Notes under the pieces: generated by a model
Told to the model about the DNA's origin: nothing
The model's input: the letters and a program-made list of their open reading frames with translations, nothing else
The model's database searches: none
Assembly (NCBI GenBank): GCA_029243485.1
Contig: JAQWRY010000086.1
Location: forward strand, 682,001 to 746,000
From: Candidatus Binatia bacterium
GTDB taxonomy: Bacteria > Desulfobacterota > Binatia > UBA12015
DNA length: 64,000 nucleotides
Direction of reading: 5' to 3'
Translations under genes and position numbers: made by a program
Shown here: positions 8,711 to 19,364 of the stretch, in pieces
Numbering within the stretch: the stretch's first letter is position 1
Layout of the letters: every line of letters begins with the position of its first letter

Positions 8711-9721
8711 TCACTCCGCGCAGCCGAGAACCGACTCCGTCATCGCCTCGCTCAGATCGGCGATGAACGATCCGCGGTACCGGGGGCTCGAGTCGATGAA
8801 GACGACGACCACCAGTTCCTTGCCGGCGCGCTCCCGTACGATGCCGGCGTCGGCGATGATGCGCCCGAACGTTCCGGTCTTCGATTCGACGGTCATCGAT
8901 TCCGCACAGCGCTTCGCGCCGCCCGCGATTCGGTGCGCGAGATAGCGCTGCTTAGCCGGATCCCGGTCCATCCGGCGACGGACCTCGGCGGAACTCCCCA
9001 CAGAGAGCGCGCGATTGGTTGCGAGGAGCCCCAGGAGCTTCGCGGTCTCGACTGCGGTCATTGCCTGGCGGTTCGAGAATTCACCGGAGCCGGAGGGCAG
9101 GCCGCCTTCGATGCTGGAGTCGGTCAGGAGTTGGCGGTCGCGCCCGTGGAGATCGCCCCCGCCGTCGTACGTCGGGTGCATGCAGTGCAGGTCGTCGATG
9201 CCGATCTCCGCGAGCCACCGGTTCACCGAGAGCCGCTTGTCGCGGAACTCGCGGTACGCCTCCGGACTCAACGCCGGACCGGCTTTCGTGTCGGTCAGGC
9301 GGCGCACGACGGTCTGCGTCGCCTTGTTGCTGCTCGCGTAGATCATTCCGCGCAGGGCACGGTCGAAGTCGGGATCGATCTCGAGCCGCCCCTGGTCCAC
9401 CCAGGCGTAGGCGGCCATGAGGTAGACGAACTTCACGACGCTGGCTGGATAGACAGGGGTATTTCCGTGTCGGTGCGCGATACGCGGCCCGCCCTGGGCG
9501 TCGAGGTCGATCACAGCGACGCGGAGGCTGGCCTCAGATAGGGACGAATCCGCCGCCACGAGACGGTCGATGGCGCGATCCAGGTCGGCCTGGAGGGTCG
9601 CCTCGGGCCGGATCGACTCGAGCCACGCCTGGTTTTCGGCGGCGCCGGCCGAGACGGCCGTCAGGATCAGGAGCCCCGCGAGCGATCGCACGGCACGCGG
9701 ACTGCACGGTCGCCTTCCCAC
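8711..9721 (-). CDS. Exported serine hydrolase of the class A beta-lactamase fold
   Basis: A 336-residue protein with a signal peptide (LAGLLILTAVSAGAAEN) and the three catalytic boxes of penicillin-recognising enzymes: S-V-V-K at residues 94-97, S-S-N at about 130-132 in place of SDN, and K-T-G at 281-283. The fold resembles class A beta-lactamases, but many environmental relatives are peptidases or uncharacterised hydrolases. The classic E166-x-x-x-N omega-loop motif is not obvious, so resistance activity should not be assumed. The product is periplasmic. It is divergent from the dikinase gene, with an 83-bp shared upstream region. Confidence 0.85.
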   Translation of the reverse strand: MGRRPCSPRAVRSLAGLLILTAVSAGAAENQAWLESIRPEATLQADLDRAIDRLVAADSSLSEASLRVAVIDLDAQGGPRIAHRHGNTPVYPASVVKFVYLMAAYAWVDQGRLEIDPDFDRALRGMIYASSNKATQTVVRRLTDTKAGPALSPEAYREFRDKRLSVNRWLAEIGIDDLHCMHPTYDGGGDLHGRDRQLLTDSSIEGGLPSGSGEFSNRQAMTAVETAKLLGLLATNRALSVGSSAEVRRRMDRDPAKQRYLAHRIAGGAKRCAESMTVESKTGTFGRIIADAGIVRERAGKELVVVVFIDSSPRYRGSFIADLSEAMTESVLGCAE

Positions 9722-9804: not shown

Positions 9805-12800
9805 GTGGCCATTAAAAGAAATCGGTTCGTCGTCGCCCTATGGGCGGGTGTGCTCTCCATCCTCGTTTTGTTTGCTCAGCCGCATGCCGTCGGCGCAGCG
9901 GTCGGACACGGGGCGCAGCTCGATACGGCGACGCAGAAGGAGCTGAAGCGGAGTTTTGCGCTCTGCTTGAGCAAGAAGAAGGGGCCGTACTCCCCCAACT
10001 TCTGCGTCTGCCAGGACGGGGCGAAGAAGCCGGTCCAGTTGCCGGGCGGCCGGATCGTCAGCCCCTGCGGCACGACGGCGAAGTTCTGCGCGGCCTATCG
10101 TACGGATTGGGCGCAGGCGCTCGCGAAGCACCGGATGTACATCGCGAACATCTTTTCTCGGGATCTGGAGGAGTGGGACAAGTTCCCCGATCACCACGAT
10201 TTGGTCCGCGGCTACATCCTCGAGAAGTTCTTCATCGACACTCATCCTGAACACAAGCTCGCCGAAATGCGTGCGTACGGTGGCCTCTCGGGTGCGGAGT
10301 ACGAGGCACGCGACGCGCCGTTGTTCGCCGAGCGCTACCTGTCTGCCCCCTCGTTCGACGATGACCGACATCACCTGCTCGCCTACGAGTTGCAGCGTCG
10401 TTTCTTTGTGCGCGACGATCAGGGGCAGATCCAGACGATCCGAAACCTCGCGAGTCGTACGTACGCGGCCGACCGGAAGTTCAAGCCGCTGCGCGACGCC
10501 ACGCACAACCAGGTCTCAGCCGCTTTGCTGCCTCGCCTCGAGGCCTACCGAAAGAAGATGCCGGCAGGCGCGGCCCGCAACGACGTCGATACGCTGATAA
10601 AGGAAATTCGGAAGCTCACCTCGCTAGACGAGTCCGTGCTGATCCCGCAGATCAAGGGCATTCAGGATGGCTCGGTACGGGAGACTCTCCAGGAGACGCT
10701 CCCCGGGAAGGACTCGGGCCCGGTCGCTCAGATCAGTGGGCTCGCCAAGATCATGGTGGAGGCGCGCGAGGCTGTGCGCGCGGCCGAGGTGACGCCGGCG
10801 GATCGGCGCCGGCTGCTCGACATCTCTGTCACCGCGTCTGCGGTCATTCAGCGACGTGGTTCCGATCTTCTCGGCGCGAACGTGCCGCTCACGGTCCGGC
10901 AGGATCTCGAACTCCTCGCGGCTCTCACGGATGCAGCATACGGCGCCGGGCTCCTCACGGGTCGGGAATGGAAAGCCGCGATTGAAAATCTGCGCGGCGC
11001 GGCCGACGAGAGCAGTCTCTCCCGCGAGGAACTGCAGCAAGTGGTTCGCCGGGCGAAGCGCGTCGTGGAGTGGGCCCAGACGGGTGTAATGCTCGCGTTT
11101 GAAGAGGTGCTCGGGCCCTGGACGTTCCTCCTGCCCTCGACGGCGTTCATCGCCGATGACGTTCTTCGCGGCTCGCCGCTGTTGCTTTACGCGGGCTTCC
11201 TGGATCGGCTGGAGACTCATGCTTCGGGTACGGAGCCGATCCGACACCGGGTGTTCGGTGAGAACGTGAGCTCCGACATCCGTGCTCTGAACCCGGGACT
11301 GGCCGTCGGCACACTTCGCATCAACCCCAAGGCCGGGACCTACTCGCGTGAGGAGATCGTCGCGCTTCCCGAGACGCCGCCGGATCTGCAGCCCGCGGCG
11401 GGCATCCTCACGCAGGGCGAAGGCAATGTCGTCTCCCATGTTCAGTTGCTCGCGCGTGCACTCGGCATTCCGAACGTGGTGCTCGGCGCGGGGCAGTTCA
11501 AACAGCTTGCGCAGTATGAGGGGGAAGAAATCGTCCTGATCGCGACGCCGGGCGGGCGCGTGCACATCGAGAAGCTCGCTGAGATCGACTCGGCCGAGCA
11601 GGCGGTGGTCGCGGAGTTCGGCAAGAGCGCGGAGCGCTCGTCCGATGGTTCGCTCGGCGCCGAGTCGAAGAAGCTTCACATTGATCGCGAACGACTCGAC
11701 ATTTCCTCGGCCGCTCCGCTGCCTCTTTCGGACATGCGCCGGAAGGACTCGGGCGTTCGTGCAGGCCCCAAGGCGTCGTTCCTGGGCGAGCTGCGCTATT
11801 TGTTCCCGGACAACGTCGCCCGGGGTGTCGTCGTTCCCTTCGGCGCCTACTACGCACACTTTCAGGCGGCGCAGGTCTCCGTGCCGAAGTCGCTCGCCGG
11901 GAAGGGCATTGCGCAGGCGGGTGAGCCGCTGCCGACGTTCGTCGAGGCGACCTACGCGAAGTTCTTCGGCGAGATGATTCCCGCCGGTGCGTCGGAGAAG
12001 GATCTCTCGGCCTGGATTCGTCCGCGACTCGAAGTGATGCAGTACTCGTTGCAGGAGTCGCCGCTTGCGCCGGACCTGAAGACGGCCATTCGGGATCGGC
12101 TGAAGGAGCAGGGGCTCCTCGATCCCGCCGACCCGTCGCAGACGGTTGGCTGCTTCGTCCGAAGCGATACCAACGTCGAGGATCTCGACGACTTCAACGG
12201 GGCGGGCCTGAACCTGACTCTCTTCAACCTCCATTCGCTCGACGCGGTTTACGCCGGCATCAAGGAAGTCTGGGCGTCGCCGTTCTCGTACCGCTCCTTC
12301 TCCTGGCGTCAGACTCTGATCGACGAGCCGATGTGGGTCCTGCCGTCGATCGTCATCCTCGAGTCCATTCCTTCGGAGAAGTCTGGCGTGCTCGTGACGG
12401 CCGATATCGAGACCGGCGACCAGACGAAGATGCTCGTGGCGACGTCCGAGGGCGTCGGCGGGGCCGTCGACGGGACTCCGGCCGAGACTCTGCTCTGGTC
12501 CGACGACGGGATCGAGTTGATCACGATGTTCAAGTCGCCGTGGCGTCGCCTGCTGCAACCGGGAGGGGGCAGCAAGGTCGTACCGGCGACCGGCAGCTCC
12601 TACGTCCTCTCAGAAGACGAGCTGGAGGATCTGATCGATGCCGCGCAGAAGATAACCGAAGAGCTCGAGCCGGCGTTGGACTCCGGCGGCAAGCCCATGC
12701 CGTGGGACGTCGAGTTCGGATTCGCCGACGGACATCTCTGGCTCTTCCAGACGCGCCCGTTCGTCGGAAACGAGGAGTTGAAGAACATGCCGGCCCTGGC

Positions 12801-12864
12801 CGCCCTCGACGGTGAGAAGCCGGGTGGCTCGGACACGATCTCGCTCGAGGAGACGCTTCGATGA
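9805..12864 (+). CDS. Exported dikinase-like protein (phosphohistidine domain plus ATP-grasp)
   Basis: A 1019-residue protein starting at GTG. A Sec-type signal peptide (core VVALWAGVLSILVLF, cleavage near AVGA) is followed by a large N-terminal region of unknown family with clustered cysteines (FCVCQDG, SPCGTTAKFC). A PEP-utiliser-like swivelling domain holds the candidate phospho-histidine H545 in GEGNVVSHVQLLARALGIP. The C-terminal third is a PPDK/PEP-synthase-type ATP-binding domain (VRSDTNVEDLDDFNG near 785 and a terminal LWLFQTRPF). The His domain precedes the ATP-grasp domain, as in glucan, water dikinases and unlike PEP synthase. An exported ATP-dependent enzyme of this type is unexpected. 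Its stop overlaps the next start (ATGA), so the two are translationally coupled. Confidence 0.8.
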   Translation: MAIKRNRFVVALWAGVLSILVLFAQPHAVGAAVGHGAQLDTATQKELKRSFALCLSKKKGPYSPNFCVCQDGAKKPVQLPGGRIVSPCGTTAKFCAAYRTDWAQALAKHRMYIANIFSRDLEEWDKFPDHHDLVRGYILEKFFIDTHPEHKLAEMRAYGGLSGAEYEARDAPLFAERYLSAPSFDDDRHHLLAYELQRRFFVRDDQGQIQTIRNLASRTYAADRKFKPLRDATHNQVSAALLPRLEAYRKKMPAGAARNDVDTLIKEIRKLTSLDESVLIPQIKGIQDGSVRETLQETLPGKDSGPVAQISGLAKIMVEAREAVRAAEVTPADRRRLLDISVTASAVIQRRGSDLLGANVPLTVRQDLELLAALTDAAYGAGLLTGREWKAAIENLRGAADESSLSREELQQVVRRAKRVVEWAQTGVMLAFEEVLGPWTFLLPSTAFIADDVLRGSPLLLYAGFLDRLETHASGTEPIRHRVFGENVSSDIRALNPGLAVGTLRINPKAGTYSREEIVALPETPPDLQPAAGILTQGEGNVVSHVQLLARALGIPNVVLGAGQFKQLAQYEGEEIVLIATPGGRVHIEKLAEIDSAEQAVVAEFGKSAERSSDGSLGAESKKLHIDRERLDISSAAPLPLSDMRRKDSGVRAGPKASFLGELRYLFPDNVARGVVVPFGAYYAHFQAAQVSVPKSLAGKGIAQAGEPLPTFVEATYAKFFGEMIPAGASEKDLSAWIRPRLEVMQYSLQESPLAPDLKTAIRDRLKEQGLLDPADPSQTVGCFVRSDTNVEDLDDFNGAGLNLTLFNLHSLDAVYAGIKEVWASPFSYRSFSWRQTLIDEPMWVLPSIVILESIPSEKSGVLVTADIETGDQTKMLVATSEGVGGAVDGTPAETLLWSDDGIELITMFKSPWRRLLQPGGGSKVVPATGSSYVLSEDELEDLIDAAQKITEELEPALDSGGKPMPWDVEFGFADGHLWLFQTRPFVGNEELKNMPALAALDGEKPGGSDTISLEETLR

Positions 12865-14498
12865 AGAGAGTCACATTCGGAATCGGGGCGGGGGCCCTCC
12901 TGGCACTCCTCCTCGCGCCGGCCCCGTCGCGTGCCGATGGGGTGGGGGGCGACGAGATCGATCTCTATCCGGTGCGCAAGAAGGGGCAGCTGGAGGAACC
13001 TCCGGCCTACGGGGTGCCGTACGACAAGTATGAGCCTTCGTTCTACACGGGCTTTGCGCCCCGTTCGCTCGAGCCTTCGCGCGTCCACTTGCACCTCGGG
13101 CGGGGCAACCAGCTCCGCGTGACGGAGGTCCTCTCGGAAGAGGTGATCGACGATTACGTCCGTGACCTCGCGCATCGGCGCACGACGTACGGGTCGCTCG
13201 CAGAGAAGAAGCGCATCGTGCTCACCCAGAACACGTCCTTTGACGAGTTCGAGACCCGGCTGGGCCAGGTCGACATCGGCGGTCTCGTCGCACAGGAGGC
13301 GAGTCTCTCTGCGGAGGCGATCCGCGCGCGCAATCTCGCGCTCATGGCGAAGCTGAACCCGGGGCGGGTCTTCCGGATCGACATGCCCACGTCGGATCTG
13401 GTCCGGCGCTGGATGAAGCGAGTGCGGCCGGAAGACGCGAAGGGCATGAAGGAACGCCGCCGCCTCCAACTGCTGAACGGTCTCTTACCAACGCGTCTGT
13501 GGCACGCGAAGATCGACGGCACCACGACGAAGGAACTGAGGGCGCTCGTGAAGAGGGCGGTGAGCGACGGCGACACGCCTTCCGCCGACGTGACGACCGC
13601 GTACCTGAAGCTCCTCGCGCGTGTGAGCGGCGGCATGTACCCGCAGGTGGGCGATTCCCTTCAGTTCGTCGAGTTCACCGCGATCTACCCGGTAGGGAGC
13701 TTCAACGAGTTCACGGAATACCGCGGGCGGAAGATTCCGATGTATCCGACTCCGGGTCGCCGCGCGCTCACGACCCATCAGCGGACGAAAACGGTCGACC
13801 ACATCCCTGACAAGGCCGTCTACGGCTACTTCCCGTGGATCCCTTACATGCACGTAGGCGACAAGCTCCACAATTCCTTCCACACGCTGTGGTGGAAGAT
13901 GGAGCCGCCGAAGACGGACTTCTTACCGTCGGATTGGCATGACATCGACCGCGGCCGTCGCGGCGACGGCGACTATCGCTACCTTTGGCTTCTTTCGCGC
14001 GGCCCAATGTCTCACGGTTGTACGCACGTGAACGCCGGTCACATCTCGGAACTTCGTCAGGTGATGCCCTCGGAGGCCAAGCGGCTCTACGAGATCGACA
14101 CGTTCCTCAACAAGTCACACCTCTATGACGTCTTCGACATCGATGGCGATGGAACGCCCGAGGTCATGGGAGTTCGGTACTTCATCGCGTTCTCGCTAAA
14201 GAACAAGAAGGCGCACAAGCTTCGCGTGAGGAACGAGCGCAAGGCGTTCTACGATTGGCTGTATGGTGGCGAACTTCTCTACCGCGAAGATGGGACGCCG
14301 TACTTCAAGTCGGCTCGGGACGGCCAATTCGTCGGCCGTACGGCGATCGATGGCTTCGAGTACGACGACATCAATCTCTACGAGGCGGAGTACGAGGCGG
14401 AGCGAATCCAGTTCTATCGGATGATCGACATTGGCTTCGCCCGTGAACTTCGGAAGGTTGGAGTGCGCTACCCGTTTCCCGAGAACAAGGCCGGCTGA
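12861..14498 (+). CDS. Exported protein with L,D-transpeptidase-like SHGC motif
   Basis: A 545-residue protein with a signal peptide (GAGALLALLLAPAPSRA). The motif M-S-H-G-C-T-H-V-N, with C387, matches the catalytic (S/T)HGCxxxN core of YkuD-type L,D-transpeptidases, which crosslink or attach proteins to peptidoglycan through an acyl-cysteine. It is far longer than a simple YkuD domain, and the usual upstream His spacing is not met, so the assignment is tentative. A DIDGDGTPEV segment after the motif looks like a calcium-binding loop. It overlaps the exported dikinase-like gene by 4 bp and is followed 12 bp later by a BASS-family permease. Expected location is the periplasm. Confidence 0.75.
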   Translation: MKRVTFGIGAGALLALLLAPAPSRADGVGGDEIDLYPVRKKGQLEEPPAYGVPYDKYEPSFYTGFAPRSLEPSRVHLHLGRGNQLRVTEVLSEEVIDDYVRDLAHRRTTYGSLAEKKRIVLTQNTSFDEFETRLGQVDIGGLVAQEASLSAEAIRARNLALMAKLNPGRVFRIDMPTSDLVRRWMKRVRPEDAKGMKERRRLQLLNGLLPTRLWHAKIDGTTTKELRALVKRAVSDGDTPSADVTTAYLKLLARVSGGMYPQVGDSLQFVEFTAIYPVGSFNEFTEYRGRKIPMYPTPGRRALTTHQRTKTVDHIPDKAVYGYFPWIPYMHVGDKLHNSFHTLWWKMEPPKTDFLPSDWHDIDRGRRGDGDYRYLWLLSRGPMSHGCTHVNAGHISELRQVMPSEAKRLYEIDTFLNKSHLYDVFDIDGDGTPEVMGVRYFIAFSLKNKKAHKLRVRNERKAFYDWLYGGELLYREDGTPYFKSARDGQFVGRTAIDGFEYDDINLYEAEYEAERIQFYRMIDIGFARELRKVGVRYPFPENKAG

Positions 14499-14509: not shown

Positions 14510-15421
14510 ATGCTGCAAACGGCAACGAATCTCTTCCCGGTCTGGGTCGTAATCGGGGGAGGGCTGGCGCTCGTCCATCCTCCCCTCTTCACCTGGTTCC
14601 GAGGCCCCCTGATCGTCTGGGGGCTCGCGGTGATCATGCTGGGGATGGGAATCACCCTCTCGTTCGCGGACTTCCGCCAGGTTCTGAAGGTTCCTCGGCC
14701 GGTCGCACTCGGCTTCGTGAGCCAGTTCCTCGTGATGCCGTATCTCGCGTGGGCGATCGCGCAGGCTCTATCTCTCGACACGCCGTTTGCGGTTGGATTG
14801 ATCCTGACCGGCGCGTGTCCCGGTGGTACCGCGTCGAACGTTGTGACCTACATCGCGCGTGCGAACCTGCCGCTGTCGGTTCTCATGACGATGTGTTCGA
14901 CCATGGGCGCGATCGTCCTGACGCCGCTCCTCACGAAATGGCTCGCTGGAACGATGGTGCCGGTTGACGCCTGGGGGCTGTTCCAGAGCACGGTGCAGGT
15001 CGTCCTCCTGCCCGTTCTTCTCGGGATTACGCTGAACCATTTCGCCCCGAAGCTCGTACGGGTCGTGCAGCCAGCGTCGCCGCTGATCGCCGTGGTTGCG
15101 ATCGTCCTGATCGTCGCGAGTGTCATCGGGCAGAGCGCAGACGCGATCCTCGGATCGGGATTCAGCCTGGTCTCCGCGGTGCTTCTGCTCCACAGCGGCG
15201 GCTTCGTGCTGGGGTACATGCTCGCGAAGTTCTTTGGCTACGAAGAGACGATCCGCCGGACTGTTTCGATCGAAGTGGGCATGCAGAACTCTGGCCTCGC
15301 GGTCGTACTGGCGCGATCGCACTTCGCGAACCCGCTTACGGCCGTACCCGGTGCGATTTCGAGCGTCGTGCACTCGGTCCTGGGGAGCTATCTCGCTGCG
15401 CGGTGGCGACGCTCCGAGTGA
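14510..15421 (+). CDS. Bile acid:sodium symporter (BASS) family permease
   Basis: A 303-residue membrane protein with nine to ten hydrophobic segments. Family signatures are GMGITLSFADFRQVLK in the third helix region, VGLILTGACPGGTASNVVTY (the sodium-site crossing helix with the conserved CPGGxxSN), and SIEVGMQNSGLAVVLA (ExGMQNxxLA). BASS proteins move organic anions, such as bile acids or keto acids, with sodium. The start 12 bp after the transpeptidase-like gene suggests it is the third gene of that run. The substrate is unknown. Confidence 0.92.
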   Translation: MLQTATNLFPVWVVIGGGLALVHPPLFTWFRGPLIVWGLAVIMLGMGITLSFADFRQVLKVPRPVALGFVSQFLVMPYLAWAIAQALSLDTPFAVGLILTGACPGGTASNVVTYIARANLPLSVLMTMCSTMGAIVLTPLLTKWLAGTMVPVDAWGLFQSTVQVVLLPVLLGITLNHFAPKLVRVVQPASPLIAVVAIVLIVASVIGQSADAILGSGFSLVSAVLLLHSGGFVLGYMLAKFFGYEETIRRTVSIEVGMQNSGLAVVLARSHFANPLTAVPGAISSVVHSVLGSYLAARWRRSE

Positions 15422-16008: not shown

Positions 16009-17595
16009 ATGCTCCCGACTGTGACTTGCTCTCGGTACATGGTGTTGGCGTTGGCACTCGGGATCGCGGCATGCGGCGATTCCGCTTCGACCGGGAACTC
16101 TCCCGCGGCGCCGCCGTCCGAGCCGGTACCGACCGCGGAACCCGCACCGGTTCCCACGCCCGCACCCGCTCCGCCGTCTTCGGCGAGCCTCACGCACGAC
16201 TTTGGCGACTACGTGCTCGGACCGGGGCAGGAAGTCGGGTCGCAGTGCGTGTCGTGGACTCTCGACAACGCAGAGTCTCTGTGGGTGAGCGCCGTGACTG
16301 TGAGCAACTCAGGCGCCTACCACCACTCGAACTGGTTCGTGGTCCCCGAGACGACGTTCCCCGGGGAGGATGGCTACTTCCGTTGCCGCGATCGCGAGTT
16401 CAGCGAGCTTGGCGCGGCCGTCGAGGGCACGGTGCTGTTCGCGCAGTCCACGCAGTCGCAGCTCGAAACTCAGAGCTTCGTTCCGGGCGCGGTGATCAAG
16501 GTGCCGCCGCACCACAAAGTCGTAGCCGGTATCCACATGCTGAACCCGTCTGCGCGCGAGATCACGACACAGTTTCGGATGACTCTCGAGCTCGCCCATC
16601 CGCGTGATGTCGAAGTCCTGCTGAAGCCCTTCCGTATCAGCTATTACGCGCTCGACATTCCGGCGAACAGCGAGGCGCGGTACACTGCGGAGTGTGATCT
16701 CGAAGCCCTCGCGGAGACGGTCACCGGGCGCCCGCTGGATATCAAGCTCTACTGGGTGCTTCCGCATTACCACTACAGCGGGAACTACTTCCGTGCGGAG
16801 TTGATCGGTGGCGAGCGTGACGGGGAGCTTCTGCACACGATCGATCGCTTCAATGCGGAGGCGAACGGCAAGATGTTCGACCCACCCGTCGACCTGACGG
16901 GTGCGACCGGTATTCGCATGACTTGTGGTTTCCGCAACCCCACCGACGAGGAAATCGGCTGGGGCATCGGCGACCAGGAGATGTGCGTCATGCTCGGCTT
17001 GGCCTCGGGTGACGTGCTCATGGACGCCTGGGTCGACGAGGACACGCACGGTGACGACGGCGTGGACGACGGAATTTTCCGCCGAAGCGGGAACTGCGAA
17101 GGGCTCGCCGTTCCGTCGAACGCGGCCCAGGTGCCGCCGACAGACGCTGAGATGCAGAGAGCGCTCTACGTTCCCGAGTCGAAACCCTCGGATGTAGACC
17201 TACCGCCGGTGCTTCTGTGCATCGATGCCTCGCTGGGCGCGTCAGCGGAAGCGCCGGTCACGTTCCAGAGTATCCGCGACACGGTCCTCACGCCGAGTTG
17301 CGCCTTCTCTGCTTGCCACGGCGCCGAGTCACCCGTTGCGGGGCTCGATCTCGAGACGGATCCGCACGAGGCCCTCCTCACGCGCAGTGTGACCTCGGCC
17401 CAGACTGAGATGCCGCTGGTGATGCCGGGTGATCCGTCGAACAGCTGGCTGTATCGACTGCTCTCGCAGTGTGAGCCCACGGATGATGCGGGTAACGTGG
17501 TCGCGTCGATGCCCCGGAACGCTCCGAATCTTCTCGACGACGCGGTCATCGCCAAGGTGCGCGCGTGGATCGAAGCCGGCGCTCCCAACGACTGA
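16009..17595 (+). CDS. PHM-like copper type II monooxygenase lipoprotein with cytochrome-like tail
   Basis: A 528-residue lipoprotein: hydrophobic MVLALALGI then lipobox I-A-A-C, followed by a Pro-rich linker. The core carries the two copper sites of peptidylglycine alpha-hydroxylating monooxygenase: H105-H106 (YHHSN) and H176 (GIHMLNP) for one, H253-x-H255 (LPHYHYSG) and M325 (DQEMCVM) for the other. The H253 to M325 spacing of 72 equals that of rat PHM (H242 to M314). The C-terminal ~110 residues form a cytochrome-c-like domain with C431-x4-C436-H437 and a GDPSNSWLYR segment typical of such tails, although x4 is not the standard CxxCH. Probably an envelope oxygenase acting on small molecules; the substrate is unknown. 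A peroxiredoxin-like selenoprotein candidate follows at 10 bp. Confidence 0.88.
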   Translation: MLPTVTCSRYMVLALALGIAACGDSASTGNSPAAPPSEPVPTAEPAPVPTPAPAPPSSASLTHDFGDYVLGPGQEVGSQCVSWTLDNAESLWVSAVTVSNSGAYHHSNWFVVPETTFPGEDGYFRCRDREFSELGAAVEGTVLFAQSTQSQLETQSFVPGAVIKVPPHHKVVAGIHMLNPSAREITTQFRMTLELAHPRDVEVLLKPFRISYYALDIPANSEARYTAECDLEALAETVTGRPLDIKLYWVLPHYHYSGNYFRAELIGGERDGELLHTIDRFNAEANGKMFDPPVDLTGATGIRMTCGFRNPTDEEIGWGIGDQEMCVMLGLASGDVLMDAWVDEDTHGDDGVDDGIFRRSGNCEGLAVPSNAAQVPPTDAEMQRALYVPESKPSDVDLPPVLLCIDASLGASAEAPVTFQSIRDTVLTPSCAFSACHGAESPVAGLDLETDPHEALLTRSVTSAQTEMPLVMPGDPSNSWLYRLLSQCEPTDDAGNVVASMPRNAPNLLDDAVIAKVRAWIEAGAPND

Positions 17596-18194: not shown

Positions 18195-19364
18195 ATGTCC
18201 TCTGAACCCGCTCTGTTCTCCCTCCGTGTTCTGACGCAGTTCGCGAACGACGTCCGCCAAGACGAGTGGGACGCCCTCGTGGGGGACGAGTCGCCTTTCC
18301 TCGAATGGGGATGGCTCGCCTCTCTGGAGGACGCCGGGTGCGTGGGTGGCGACACCGGTTGGAGCCCCCAGCACCTCACGCTCTATCAGGCCGACCGGCT
18401 CGTCGGCGCGTGCCCGCTGTACTTGAAGACCAATAGCGAGGGGGAGTTCGTCTTCGACTACGCGTGGGCGAACGCCGCGCACCGGGGCGGGATCGAGTAC
18501 TACCCGAAGATGCTCGTCGCGGTGCCGTTCACGCCGGCCACCGGGATTCGGTTTCTCGTTGCGCCCGACCTCGACCGCGCGGGGATCATCCGGGCCTTGG
18601 GCAAGGCGCTGCGCGATCTGTGTCACGAGAACGAGATTTCCTCGATCCATGTGAACTTCTGCAACGAGGACGAAGCCGCCGTTCTGGCCGACGTCGGCTT
18701 CATCGAGCGCAGAGGGTTTCAGTACAAGTGGCGGAACCACGGTTACGAGTCCTTCGAGGACTACCTCGGTGCGCTTCGGCACAAGCGTCGGAAAGAGATC
18801 AAGCGCGAGCGACGCATCCTCGGCGATCAGAAGATCGAGATCCAAGCGCTCGTCGGAGACGATATTCCCGACGAGATGTTTGCCGAGATGTATCGTCTCT
18901 ATCTCACCACCGTCGACAAGTACGCCTGGGGACGACGCTATCTGTCTTCGTCCTTCTTCGACATGTTGCGCGAGCGGTTTCGCAAGAACCTGTGCTTCCT
19001 CGTCGCCCGGCAGAACGATGAGGTGATTGCGGGCACGTTCAACGTCCAGAAGAGCGGAGCGCTCTACGGGCGTTACTGGGGCACGTACGAGGAGGTGCGG
19101 CATCTCCATTTCAATGTCTGCTACTACGCGACGATCGAGCACTGCATCGCGTCCGGCCTCGAACGATTCGAGCCGGGGGCCGGTGGCGAGTTCAAATGGC
19201 TGCGCGGCTTCGACGCGGAGGAAACGCGCAGCATGCATTATCTACGCGACCCGAGGCTGGGTGAGGCCGTCGGTCGCTTCCTCGAGGAGGAGCGCGAAGA
19301 GGTTTCGCGAGTGATCGATGCGATGGGCGAGCGCAGCCAGCTCAAGCCGCGACCGAACTCCTAG
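18195..19364 (+). CDS. FemAB-like/GNAT-fold protein (PF04339 type)
   Basis: A 389-residue protein of the peptidoglycan-recognition FemAB-like family (DUF482). It has the characteristic SPFLEWGWLASLEDAGCVGG start, GACPLYLKTNSEGEFVFDYAWANA in the first half, and FEPGAGGEFKWLRGFDAEET with a terminal HYLRDPRLGEAV. These proteins carry a tandem GNAT fold and are thought to transfer acyl or aminoacyl groups, but no reaction is established for this family. No signal peptide. It follows the selenoprotein candidate by 55 bp and converges on a glycine-rich lipoprotein gene with an 8-bp gap. Confidence 0.88.
   Translation: MSSEPALFSLRVLTQFANDVRQDEWDALVGDESPFLEWGWLASLEDAGCVGGDTGWSPQHLTLYQADRLVGACPLYLKTNSEGEFVFDYAWANAAHRGGIEYYPKMLVAVPFTPATGIRFLVAPDLDRAGIIRALGKALRDLCHENEISSIHVNFCNEDEAAVLADVGFIERRGFQYKWRNHGYESFEDYLGALRHKRRKEIKRERRILGDQKIEIQALVGDDIPDEMFAEMYRLYLTTVDKYAWGRRYLSSSFFDMLRERFRKNLCFLVARQNDEVIAGTFNVQKSGALYGRYWGTYEEVRHLHFNVCYYATIEHCIASGLERFEPGAGGEFKWLRGFDAEETRSMHYLRDPRLGEAVGRFLEEEREEVSRVIDAMGERSQLKPRPNS

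Follow-up and report, generated by a model that had tools for sequence, protein, structure and literature searches.

We found that a 64,000-nucleotide stretch of DNA from Candidatus Binatia bacterium (hereafter the window) encodes a signal-peptide-bearing enzyme, ORF1, with an intact ATP-grasp/phosphohistidine relay, and that genetic ties connect it with a gene of the translocase family and with envelope enzymes of peptidase type. This presents a paradox: an enzyme of an ATP-using type appears to be exported into a compartment thought to be free of ATP, and the linked ATP/ADP carrier could supply that ATP. In our judgement there is an even chance that these genes form a periplasmic ATP-dependent phosphotransfer system that acts on the envelope and is fuelled by a dedicated carrier, for which there is no biochemical evidence. 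On the computational side, the N-termini are of export type, the catalytic residues are intact, and the domain folds, linkage and co-occurrence add support. The features of the locus, in window coordinates, are as follows.

8711 to 9721, minus strand: divergent exported protein of the serine-peptidase/beta-lactamase fold (PF13354), separated from ORF1 by 83 bp, a recurrent partner at the locus.
9805 to 12864, plus strand: ORF1, exported dikinase-like protein of 1019 aa with a GTG start (signal peptide, Cys-bearing N-terminal region, helical domain, phosphohistidine domain, C-terminal ATP-grasp).
9805 to 9897, plus strand: signal-peptide-like N-terminus of ORF1, about residues 1-31, by hydrophobicity rule (cleavage site not computed).
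10003 to 10089, plus strand: CxC...C...C cluster of ORF1 (C67, C69, C88, C95), from the alignment.
11248 to 11625, plus strand: phosphohistidine (swivel) domain of ORF1, residues 482-607, from Pfam, fold (Z 9.4 to Enzyme I) and His conservation.
11437 to 11439, plus strand: codon of His545, the swivel histidine of ORF1.
11704 to 12771, plus strand: PPDK-type ATP-grasp of ORF1, residues 634-989 (K656, R786, T805, D968, E970, Q982, R984), from Pfam, fold and alignment.
12861 to 14498, plus strand: ORF2, exported L,D-transpeptidase-like protein of 545 aa with an ATG start.
13881 to 13883, plus strand: His341 of ORF2, partner of the SHGC motif.
14010 to 14021, plus strand: SHGC motif of ORF2, S384-C387.
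14510 to 15421: SBF/BASS permease gene, 11 bp downstream of ORF2.

ORF1 and ORF2 overlap by the 4 bp ATGA, as a sequence-only reading of this DNA had stated, and their pairing exceeds chance: type I ORF1 and ORF2 orthologues are 49-85% identical and the two genes remain linked at 13 of 16 ORF2 loci. A type I ORF1 is present in all 13 ORF2-positive genomes. The PF13354-type family is found at 29/36 loci of both ORF1 types. L048, a copy of L014 with identical coordinates in G328 and G433, was left out of the rows analysed. Gene order varies; it is ORF1 - TLC - ORF2 in G273 and ORF1 - ORF2b - ORF2 - TLC in G337. A divergent 5'-nucleotidase gene lies beside the locus in G273 alone among the genomes seen. 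The BASS permease that the earlier reading had included is indeed present, but its position is incidental; because, of the loci surveyed, only that of the window and its closest relative (L005, identical to L091) have it next to ORF2, it falls outside the conserved unit and was rejected as a component. Plasmid-borne spread was also rejected, as a plasmid search gave no match to ORF2 and none spanning 80% of ORF1; the annotated partial matches shown were PEP synthase or PEP/pyruvate-binding proteins.

Both proteins have the signal-peptide-like N-termini that had been claimed for them, under a lenient hydrophobicity rule rather than SignalP. Such N-termini occur in 29/29 members of the ORF1 family with complete 5' ends, the window's included (27 by the rule and 2 by eye; L012 and L054, with cut 5' ends, were left out), and by the rule in 42/42 ORF2 homologues. 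The same rule passes 128 of 245 other genes (52%) in a like-for-like control and 113/284 in a fixed-start control. Within the cysteine cluster of ORF1, C69 and C88 are each present in 28/29 homologues, and C67 and C95 co-vary (both in 16/29, neither in 13/29). In 8/10 complete type II dikinases, C69 and C88 are the sole cysteines. Judged from residue conservation alone, the cluster probably makes two disulfides.

The catalytic part of ORF1 matches PF00391 at residues 524-577 (22.3 bits, slightly below the cut-off of 23.1) and PF01326 (PPDK_N) at residues 742-993 (E 5e-25, 88.8 bits against a cut-off of 27). Thus, the order of phosphohistidine domain followed by ATP-grasp, earlier likened to that of glucan dikinases, is correct, the likeness being one of domain order only. 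The type II paralogue matches PF00391 at 26.8 bits against the same cut-off. The predicted ORF1 model is weak overall (pLDDT 66.7). When structures were compared, its ATP-grasp aligned over residues 635-861 with the ATP domain of rifampin phosphotransferase (RPH) at Z 18.9, and its phosphohistidine domain aligned with Enzyme I. The helical N-terminal domain (about residues 170-480), which was not folded separately, had no convincing match in this comparison. H545, K656 and R786 are each conserved in 30/31 aligned homologues, L089 being the exception, down to 22% identity, and so are D968, E970, Q982 and R984, for which the missing row ends at a contig end. PEP synthase has its ATP-domain Lys and Arg at the positions of K656 and R786, and R786 also aligns with RPH. 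The 31 rows include L061, a near copy of L068 (803/805 residues); the ORF1 tree excludes the incomplete L012, L054 and L061. Loss of H545 or of the ATP-binding residues in all homologues, or homologues that are cytosolic and unlinked, had been named in advance as grounds for abandoning a joint exported system. Neither was seen, and our results support that interpretation.

Could ORF1 be exported and yet not use ATP, serving as a binding or structural protein, or taking its phosphoryl group from elsewhere, for instance from PEP or a polyprenyl diphosphate? The textbook view, as given in PMC7391070, is that the periplasm lacks ATP; the PF00391 match of the window protein is sub-threshold; and L089, a linked homologue in G317, has an in-frame internal deletion of residues 499-938 that removes H545 and most of the ATP-grasp. 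G317 carries a second ORF1 copy, L054, with both. As neither retention of all seven residues nor linkage to a carrier would be expected for a family of pseudo-enzymes, we consider this explanation unlikely, if still worth keeping in mind.

The linkage to a carrier bears on the question of ATP supply. A TLC/NTT-family (ATP/ADP carrier) gene lies within 8 kb of an ORF1 homologue in 20 of 26 ORF1-bearing genomes, where about 0.3 (0.31) would be expected; without weak TLC matches the count is the same and the expectation is 0.22. This tally omits G433, a copy of G328, and G432, which has no ORF1 match. By Pfam, TLC genes occur in 16/19 ORF1-positive and 18/126 ORF1-negative genomes of a one-class sample (p 2e-9). 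One TLC subfamily occurs in 13/19 against 0/126, a result that depends on a profile made from the neighbours of the locus and on a cut of 660 bits chosen post hoc; with a threshold of E<=1e-10 instead, the counts from this profile are 14/19 and 22/126 (p 2e-6). Because the genomes are related, these counts are not independent. The remaining 6 of the 26 genomes (G348, G366, G300, G308, G385 and G437) have no nearby TLC match, some of them at contig ends, and in G437, from Bdellovibrionales, the sole match scores 55 bits and is unlinked. The window's own cluster contains no TLC gene; in the window genome a carrier gene lies on another contig (C1), 2.6 kb from a second (type II) exported dikinase. 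In G434, 81 bp separate the TLC match from the dikinase match. The sequence-only reading had taken it as given that the periplasm has no ATP, a premise that is now in doubt because the ORF1 family is linked to these carrier genes.

Assignment of the linked genes to the carrier family rests on several comparisons. Pfam TLC E values are 3.6e-23 (G273), 2.3e-5 and 5.4e-10, and PF03219 scores are 82.6 bits for G273 and 23.8 for L012/G337 against a cut-off of 21. The window-genome carrier (L063) has no Pfam match at E<=0.1 and was placed by homology to the G273 carrier (E 2.4e-16); the profile of its subfamily also matches 9j3n. Profile comparison of the linked carriers matches the solved ADP,ATP carriers 9j3n and 9j3j (E 4e-15 and 5e-10) over nearly the full length of the profile, and the KAKxAID...R region corresponds to KGKAAID. 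Unlike known TLC/NTT carriers, the linked genes are tied to an exported ATP-grasp enzyme, and transport by them is inferred. The functions of NTTs in free-living bacteria are given as unknown in PMC5381601.

The carrier might instead import nucleotides, with the exported dikinase using ATP found outside the cell after other cells have lysed or been preyed upon, as in a predatory or necrotrophic lifestyle. Homologues do occur in Bdellovibrionales and Myxococcaceae records, and externally acquired ATP can be held in the E. coli periplasm (PMC7432876). However, the lifestyles of the metagenome-assembled genomes are unknown, the Bdellovibrionales copy has no linked carrier, and peptidase-type partners leave the need for ATP import unexplained. 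We regard scavenging, too, as improbable. It is also conceivable that the carrier linkage is merely a neighbourhood inherited within a lineage and without functional meaning. The class-sample genomes share ancestry, the linkage counts include no tree-based tally of independent gains, and 18 of the 126 ORF1-negative genomes also have TLC-type genes. Against this, the linkage turns up repeatedly, in more than one gene order and with TLC proteins of two architectures, single-domain (F3) and fused to HEAT (F10). It was seen in five class-sample families as well as in six additional genomes, of which one belongs to a different class and the remaining five are of undetermined kinship. Inheritance alone is thus a very unlikely account.

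The enzymes encoded beside ORF1 are of cell-wall type. As had been proposed, ORF2 contains the L,D-transpeptidase core motif within a larger frame. C387, S384, G386 and H341 are present in 42/42 homologues and H385 in 40/42. Pfam gave no YkuD (PF03734) match for ORF2, and at E<=1 PF03734 matched 8/26 aligned members, with a best E of 0.027. A PDB search gave two chance-level matches with a profile and none with the single sequence, and plain Foldseek of the AlphaFold2 model gave nothing at E<=0.001. When VIA-align was used with this model, L,D-transpeptidase-type chains filled rows 1-17, above background, and row 18 was another peptidoglycan-enzyme entry; Z was 7.3-6.1 for rows 1-18 and 3.6 for the next unrelated row, all below 8. 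ORF2 shares with the YkuD enzymes LdtMt1, LdtMt2 and Bd1075 the catalytic-core fold over about 110 residues, the SHGC motif and the upstream His. It differs from them in its large helical insertion, in escaping Pfam detection (the window protein) and in being multicopy, with two or three copies in 12/13 genomes. In a quick tree, used only for group separation and excluding L008_s258, ORF2, ORF2b and stand-alone paralogues form separate groups. The divergent protein at 8711-9721 scores 61.5 bits for PF13354 (cut-off 22), and its family retains the S-x-x-K, S-x-N and K-x-G motifs in 24/24 members.

ORF1 was not assigned to any of the known families that it resembles. With PEP synthase and PPDK (PF01326, PF00391 and a PEP barrel) it shares the ATP-grasp fold and residues, the swivel His and, likely, the conversion of ATP to AMP + Pi, an activity that is inferred. 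However, ORF1 has a signal peptide and a helical N-terminal domain, its ATP-grasp is C-terminal rather than first in the order ATP-grasp - His - barrel, and no PEP/pyruvate barrel was found among the Pfam matches of ORF1 and four homologues; membership was rejected on the missing barrel and the domain order. In glucan water dikinases (GWD/PWD), the His domain precedes a C-terminal ATP-grasp, and ORF1 meets this order. In contrast to GWD/PWD, it is bacterial, has a signal peptide and matches no starch-binding model; at E<=1 Pfam gave only PPDK_N and PEP-utilizers (whether Pfam covers all GWD parts was unchecked), and this membership was rejected only provisionally. RPH (PDB 5hv1, 5fbs) provides the best structural match for the ATP-grasp and is likewise built of three parts, an ATP-grasp, a substrate domain and a His swivel. 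Its order is ATP-grasp - substrate domain - His, whereas that of ORF1 is N-terminal domain - His - ATP-grasp; RPH lacks the signal peptide, and no match to its substrate domain was shown. We rejected this assignment on domain order and on the NCBIfam RPH equivalog model, which gives ORF1 42.8 bits against a cut-off of 999. An extracytoplasmic drug-inactivating set, made up of an exported RPH relative with beta-lactamase-fold and L,D-transpeptidase-like proteins, would suit that structural match and the PF13354 neighbour, but is hardly tenable given this score and domain order, the resemblance of the ATP-grasp to PEP synthase too, and the plasmid results.

Based on these findings, we propose that the locus may encode those components of an ATP-driven system for envelope modification that lie outside the cytoplasm. 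ORF1 would be secreted by Sec and would then fold, with its disulfides, in the oxidising periplasm. Its C-terminal ATP-grasp would bind ATP and pass the beta-phosphate to His545 with release of AMP + Pi, as in PEP synthase and RPH (for RPH, see PMC4844700); that ORF1 is an active kinase is inferred.

The second part of our model concerns the acceptor. The swivel domain may carry the phosphate to a molecule held by the helical N-terminal domain. The identity of this substrate is inferred; we suggest that it is probably peptidoglycan or another envelope molecule because the commonest ORF1 neighbours are periplasmic peptidase-type enzymes, namely the divergent protein that resembles serine peptidases and, where ORF1 is of type I, L,D-transpeptidase-like ORF2 in one or two copies.

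The final part of our model involves the supply of ATP. It would come through a dedicated nucleotide carrier of the TLC/NTT family, whose gene lies near those of the ORF1 family; in the window genome this would be the carrier encoded beside the second exported dikinase on contig C1. The outward direction of transport is inferred. Among the listed matches in open-licence PMC, titles and the opening parts of abstracts describe neither an exported dikinase nor this locus. We advance only tentatively, and with less than even confidence, the broader hypothesis that some free-living diderms keep an ATP-powered periplasm, in which exported ATP-grasp/phosphohistidine dikinases are supplied with ATP that a TLC/NTT carrier passes out through the inner membrane. 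The dikinases would act on envelope polymers, phosphorylating or activating them for partner enzymes of the serine-peptidase and L,D-transpeptidase-like kinds. If true, this would give the NTTs of free-living bacteria a role, and it would mean that covalent chemistry of the envelope can run on ATP outside the cytoplasm.

Two forward-strand genes form the core of the locus:

9805-12864, + strand: ORF1, the dikinase-like protein, 1019 aa, with a PEP-utilizer swivel domain followed by a C-terminal PPDK_N domain
12861-14498, + strand: ORF2, the L,D-transpeptidase-like protein, 545 aa, with SHGC present

The genes overlap by ATGA, confirming the 4-bp overlap (12861-12864) described in the sequence-only reading, and the swivel domain precedes PPDK_N, in the phosphohistidine-then-ATP-grasp order given there. 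A divergent serine-peptidase/beta-lactamase-fold gene (PF13354; 8711-9721, - strand) starts 83 bp upstream of ORF1. The BASS permease reported after ORF2 is indeed found, as an SBF/BASS gene starting 11 bp downstream. A few genes downstream of the locus, 18195-19364 encodes a FemAB-like peptidoglycan-biosynthesis/GNAT protein (PF04339, E 3e-137). The protein encoded at 16009-17595 is lipoprotein-like; it has a C-x4-C-H stretch towards its C-terminus and matches PSCyt1 only weakly, below threshold. In L006, too, a homologue is found close to the locus.

A scan of GTDB-species contigs yielded 16 loci with ORF2, chiefly in Deltaproteobacteria MAGs, but also in Myxococcaceae, Desulfobacterales, Bdellovibrionales and one gammaproteobacterial MAG. 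Unlinked homologues would have spoken against a joint system; within the stretch examined per locus, ORF1 is encoded alongside ORF2 in 13 of the 16 (exceptions L011, L016 and L017). Several clusters carry an additional ORF2-like gene, ORF2b, between the two, in some with the same 4-bp overlap. A sample of 145 genomes from the same class as the window includes 13 with an ORF2 homologue and 19 with an ORF1 homologue. Co-occurrence is complete for the window's type of dikinase (type I), present in 13/13 ORF2 genomes, and a second exported type (type II) is found in all six ORF1-only genomes. The ORF1 tree resolves the two types as distinct groups with full support; the Bdellovibrionales protein, whose branch is very long, falls outside both. 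One type II dikinase (contig C1, 35% identical to ORF1) is encoded in the genome that the window comes from. In a phylum-wide sample only 2 of 297 genomes contain ORF2, so the system is of rare and patchy occurrence. Elsewhere in the window's own genome (L073; G000:C18, 2786-6096), one more ORF2 paralogue comes immediately after a gene whose match to di-haem cytochrome c peroxidase (CCP_MauG) is below threshold, and this order is identical in G342 (L074).

The putative catalytic residues of ORF1 are retained. H545, K656 and R786 are found in 30/31 aligned homologues, as are D968, E970, Q982 and R984, so the loss of H545 or ATP-binding residues in all homologues, which would have refuted the reading, did not appear; these residues are intact even in the Bdellovibrionales protein, which is 22% identical. 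The row without the C-terminal residues (L061) is truncated by a contig end. The only row lacking H545, L089 of G317, aligns only to residues 1-498 and 939-1019. This in-frame internal deletion (window residues 499-938) leaves the protein without its His domain and with little of its ATP-grasp, and Pfam gives no PPDK_N match in it. The gene (L089:8988-10685) lies in an otherwise complete ORF1-ORF2b-ORF2-carrier cluster. It may reflect decay, an assembly fault or a kinase-less form. Whether real or an assembly fault, the deletion counts against a strict kinase requirement, but this is tempered by the other ORF1 copy in G317 (L054), which has both domains.

The ORF1 model is weak overall (pLDDT 66.7); its ATP-grasp nonetheless resembles rifampin phosphotransferase (RPH) and PEP synthase (Z 18-19). 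The His domain resembles Enzyme I (Z 9.4). The PEP synthase ATP-grasp aligns with K656, R786 and the D-x-E...Q-x-R block, and the RPH alignment covers R786 and that block. PMC4844700 describes Lys22, Arg117 and Thr136 of RPH as acting on the phosphates of ATP and His825 as the phosphate carrier. T805 (Ser in L020) lies 19 residues past R786, the spacing of Arg117 and Thr136.

Signal peptides had been claimed for both proteins. Signal-peptide-like N-termini occur in all 42 ORF2 homologues. Of the ORF1 homologues, all 29 whose 5' end is complete show one, 27 of them by the rule applied and two (L019 and L072) on visual inspection. The rule is lenient, with start codons picked to suit it, and 128/245 other genes pass given equal freedom. 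However, the cysteine pattern of ORF1 independently supports export: C69 and C88 are retained in 28/29, C67 and C95 are jointly present in 16 and jointly absent in 13, and C69/C88 are the sole cysteines in 8/10 complete type II proteins.

For ORF2 (model pLDDT 88.4), plain Foldseek gave nothing at E<=0.001, and Pfam finds no YkuD match in the window's protein. With VIA-align, peptidoglycan enzymes fill the top 18 rows (Z 7.3 to 6.1, ~110 residues), all but one being of L,D-transpeptidase type (17), and the first unrelated row has Z 3.6; values below 8 need caution. C387, S384, G386 and H341 are found in 42/42 aligned homologues and H385 in 40/42, bearing out the proposed core motif. Given these rows, the SHGC motif and weak YkuD matches in 8/26 aligned members, we accept, with caution, a predicted core of L,D-transpeptidase type that carries a large helical insertion, in line with the larger frame previously inferred.

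Gene-neighbour clustering showed that multi-TM proteins recur beside ORF1-family genes. Pfam assigns them to TLC ATP/ADP transporters (PF03219), with E 3.6e-23 in G273, 2.3e-5 in L012 and 5.4e-10 in a HEAT-fused form; there was no Pfam TLC match in the own genome's carrier copy, which is homologous to that of G273, or in L012's long second protein. The single-domain subfamily profile matches the solved ADP,ATP carriers 9j3n and 9j3j. Within the class sample, Pfam TLC occurs in 16/19 ORF1-positive versus 18/126 ORF1-negative genomes (Fisher p 2e-9, relatedness uncorrected). With the locus-neighbour profile, 13 genomes reach at least 660 bits, all ORF1-positive (13/19 versus 0/126), but profile rows came from 7 of these 13 genomes and the cut was chosen afterwards; at E<=1e-10 the figures are 14/19 versus 22/126 (p 2e-6). 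In 10/13 subfamily-positive genomes, a subfamily gene and an ORF1-family gene are no more than 8 kb apart. Counting HEAT-fused carriers and genomes reached via other loci, a TLC-family gene lies that close to an ORF1-family gene in 20/26 ORF1 genomes, versus ~0.3 expected at random; none was found at that distance in G348, G366, G300, G308, G385 or the Bdellovibrionales genome G437.

Gene order varies: ORF1-TLC-ORF2 in G273, ORF1-ORF2b-ORF2-TLC with a long multi-TM protein in G337, and TLC-dikinase-second serine protein in G434. The window itself has no TLC gene near ORF1; elsewhere in its genome, TLC and a serine protein face the type II dikinase and its serine partner. In G273 only, a 5'-nucleotidase (L083:7683-9398; PF02872 and PF00149) is divergent to the dikinase, which fits AMP removal outside the cytoplasm. 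Long multi-TM proteins adjoin the locus at L012:7043-9199, L079:747-4253 and L107:13677-16802 and resemble published NTT-HEAT-cNBD fusions in layout; Pfam finds HEAT repeats and a cyclic-nucleotide-binding domain in that of L079 and nothing in that of L012. The function of such NTT-HEAT(-cNBD) fusions, and of NTTs in free-living bacteria, is given as unknown in PMC5381601. By eye, the surroundings of type II dikinases in G302, G320 and G372 (L068, L071 and L069), which are of one family, include a RimK-like ATP-grasp protein along with a multi-TM protein of a type that commonly accompanies it.

The serine-peptidase-like family is found in 29/36 ORF1 loci of both types, with S-x-x-K, S-x-N and K-x-G motifs in 24/24. 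It is absent from L012, L019, L020, L083, L090, L067 and L106, of which L012, L090 and L106 are near contig ends.

The dikinase, transpeptidase-like protein and carrier are members of known superfamilies. We know of no system that matches this assembly, and the literature searched for it held no counterpart to the whole, in agreement with the earlier failure to match it to a known pathway. We regard the system as categorically new in kind, its function being unproven.

We propose a model for this system. The periplasm is said to have no ATP (PMC7391070), and how ATP gets there is described as unknown in PMC7432876. We infer that the carrier would supply ATP to the exported dikinase, whose ATP-grasp would yield phosphorylated His545, AMP and Pi. 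His545 would then pass its phosphate to an acceptor, where it may either stay or drive the formation of a bond. As serine-peptidase-fold and L,D-transpeptidase-like proteins often accompany ORF1, we infer peptidoglycan, or a molecule bound to it, as the likely acceptor.
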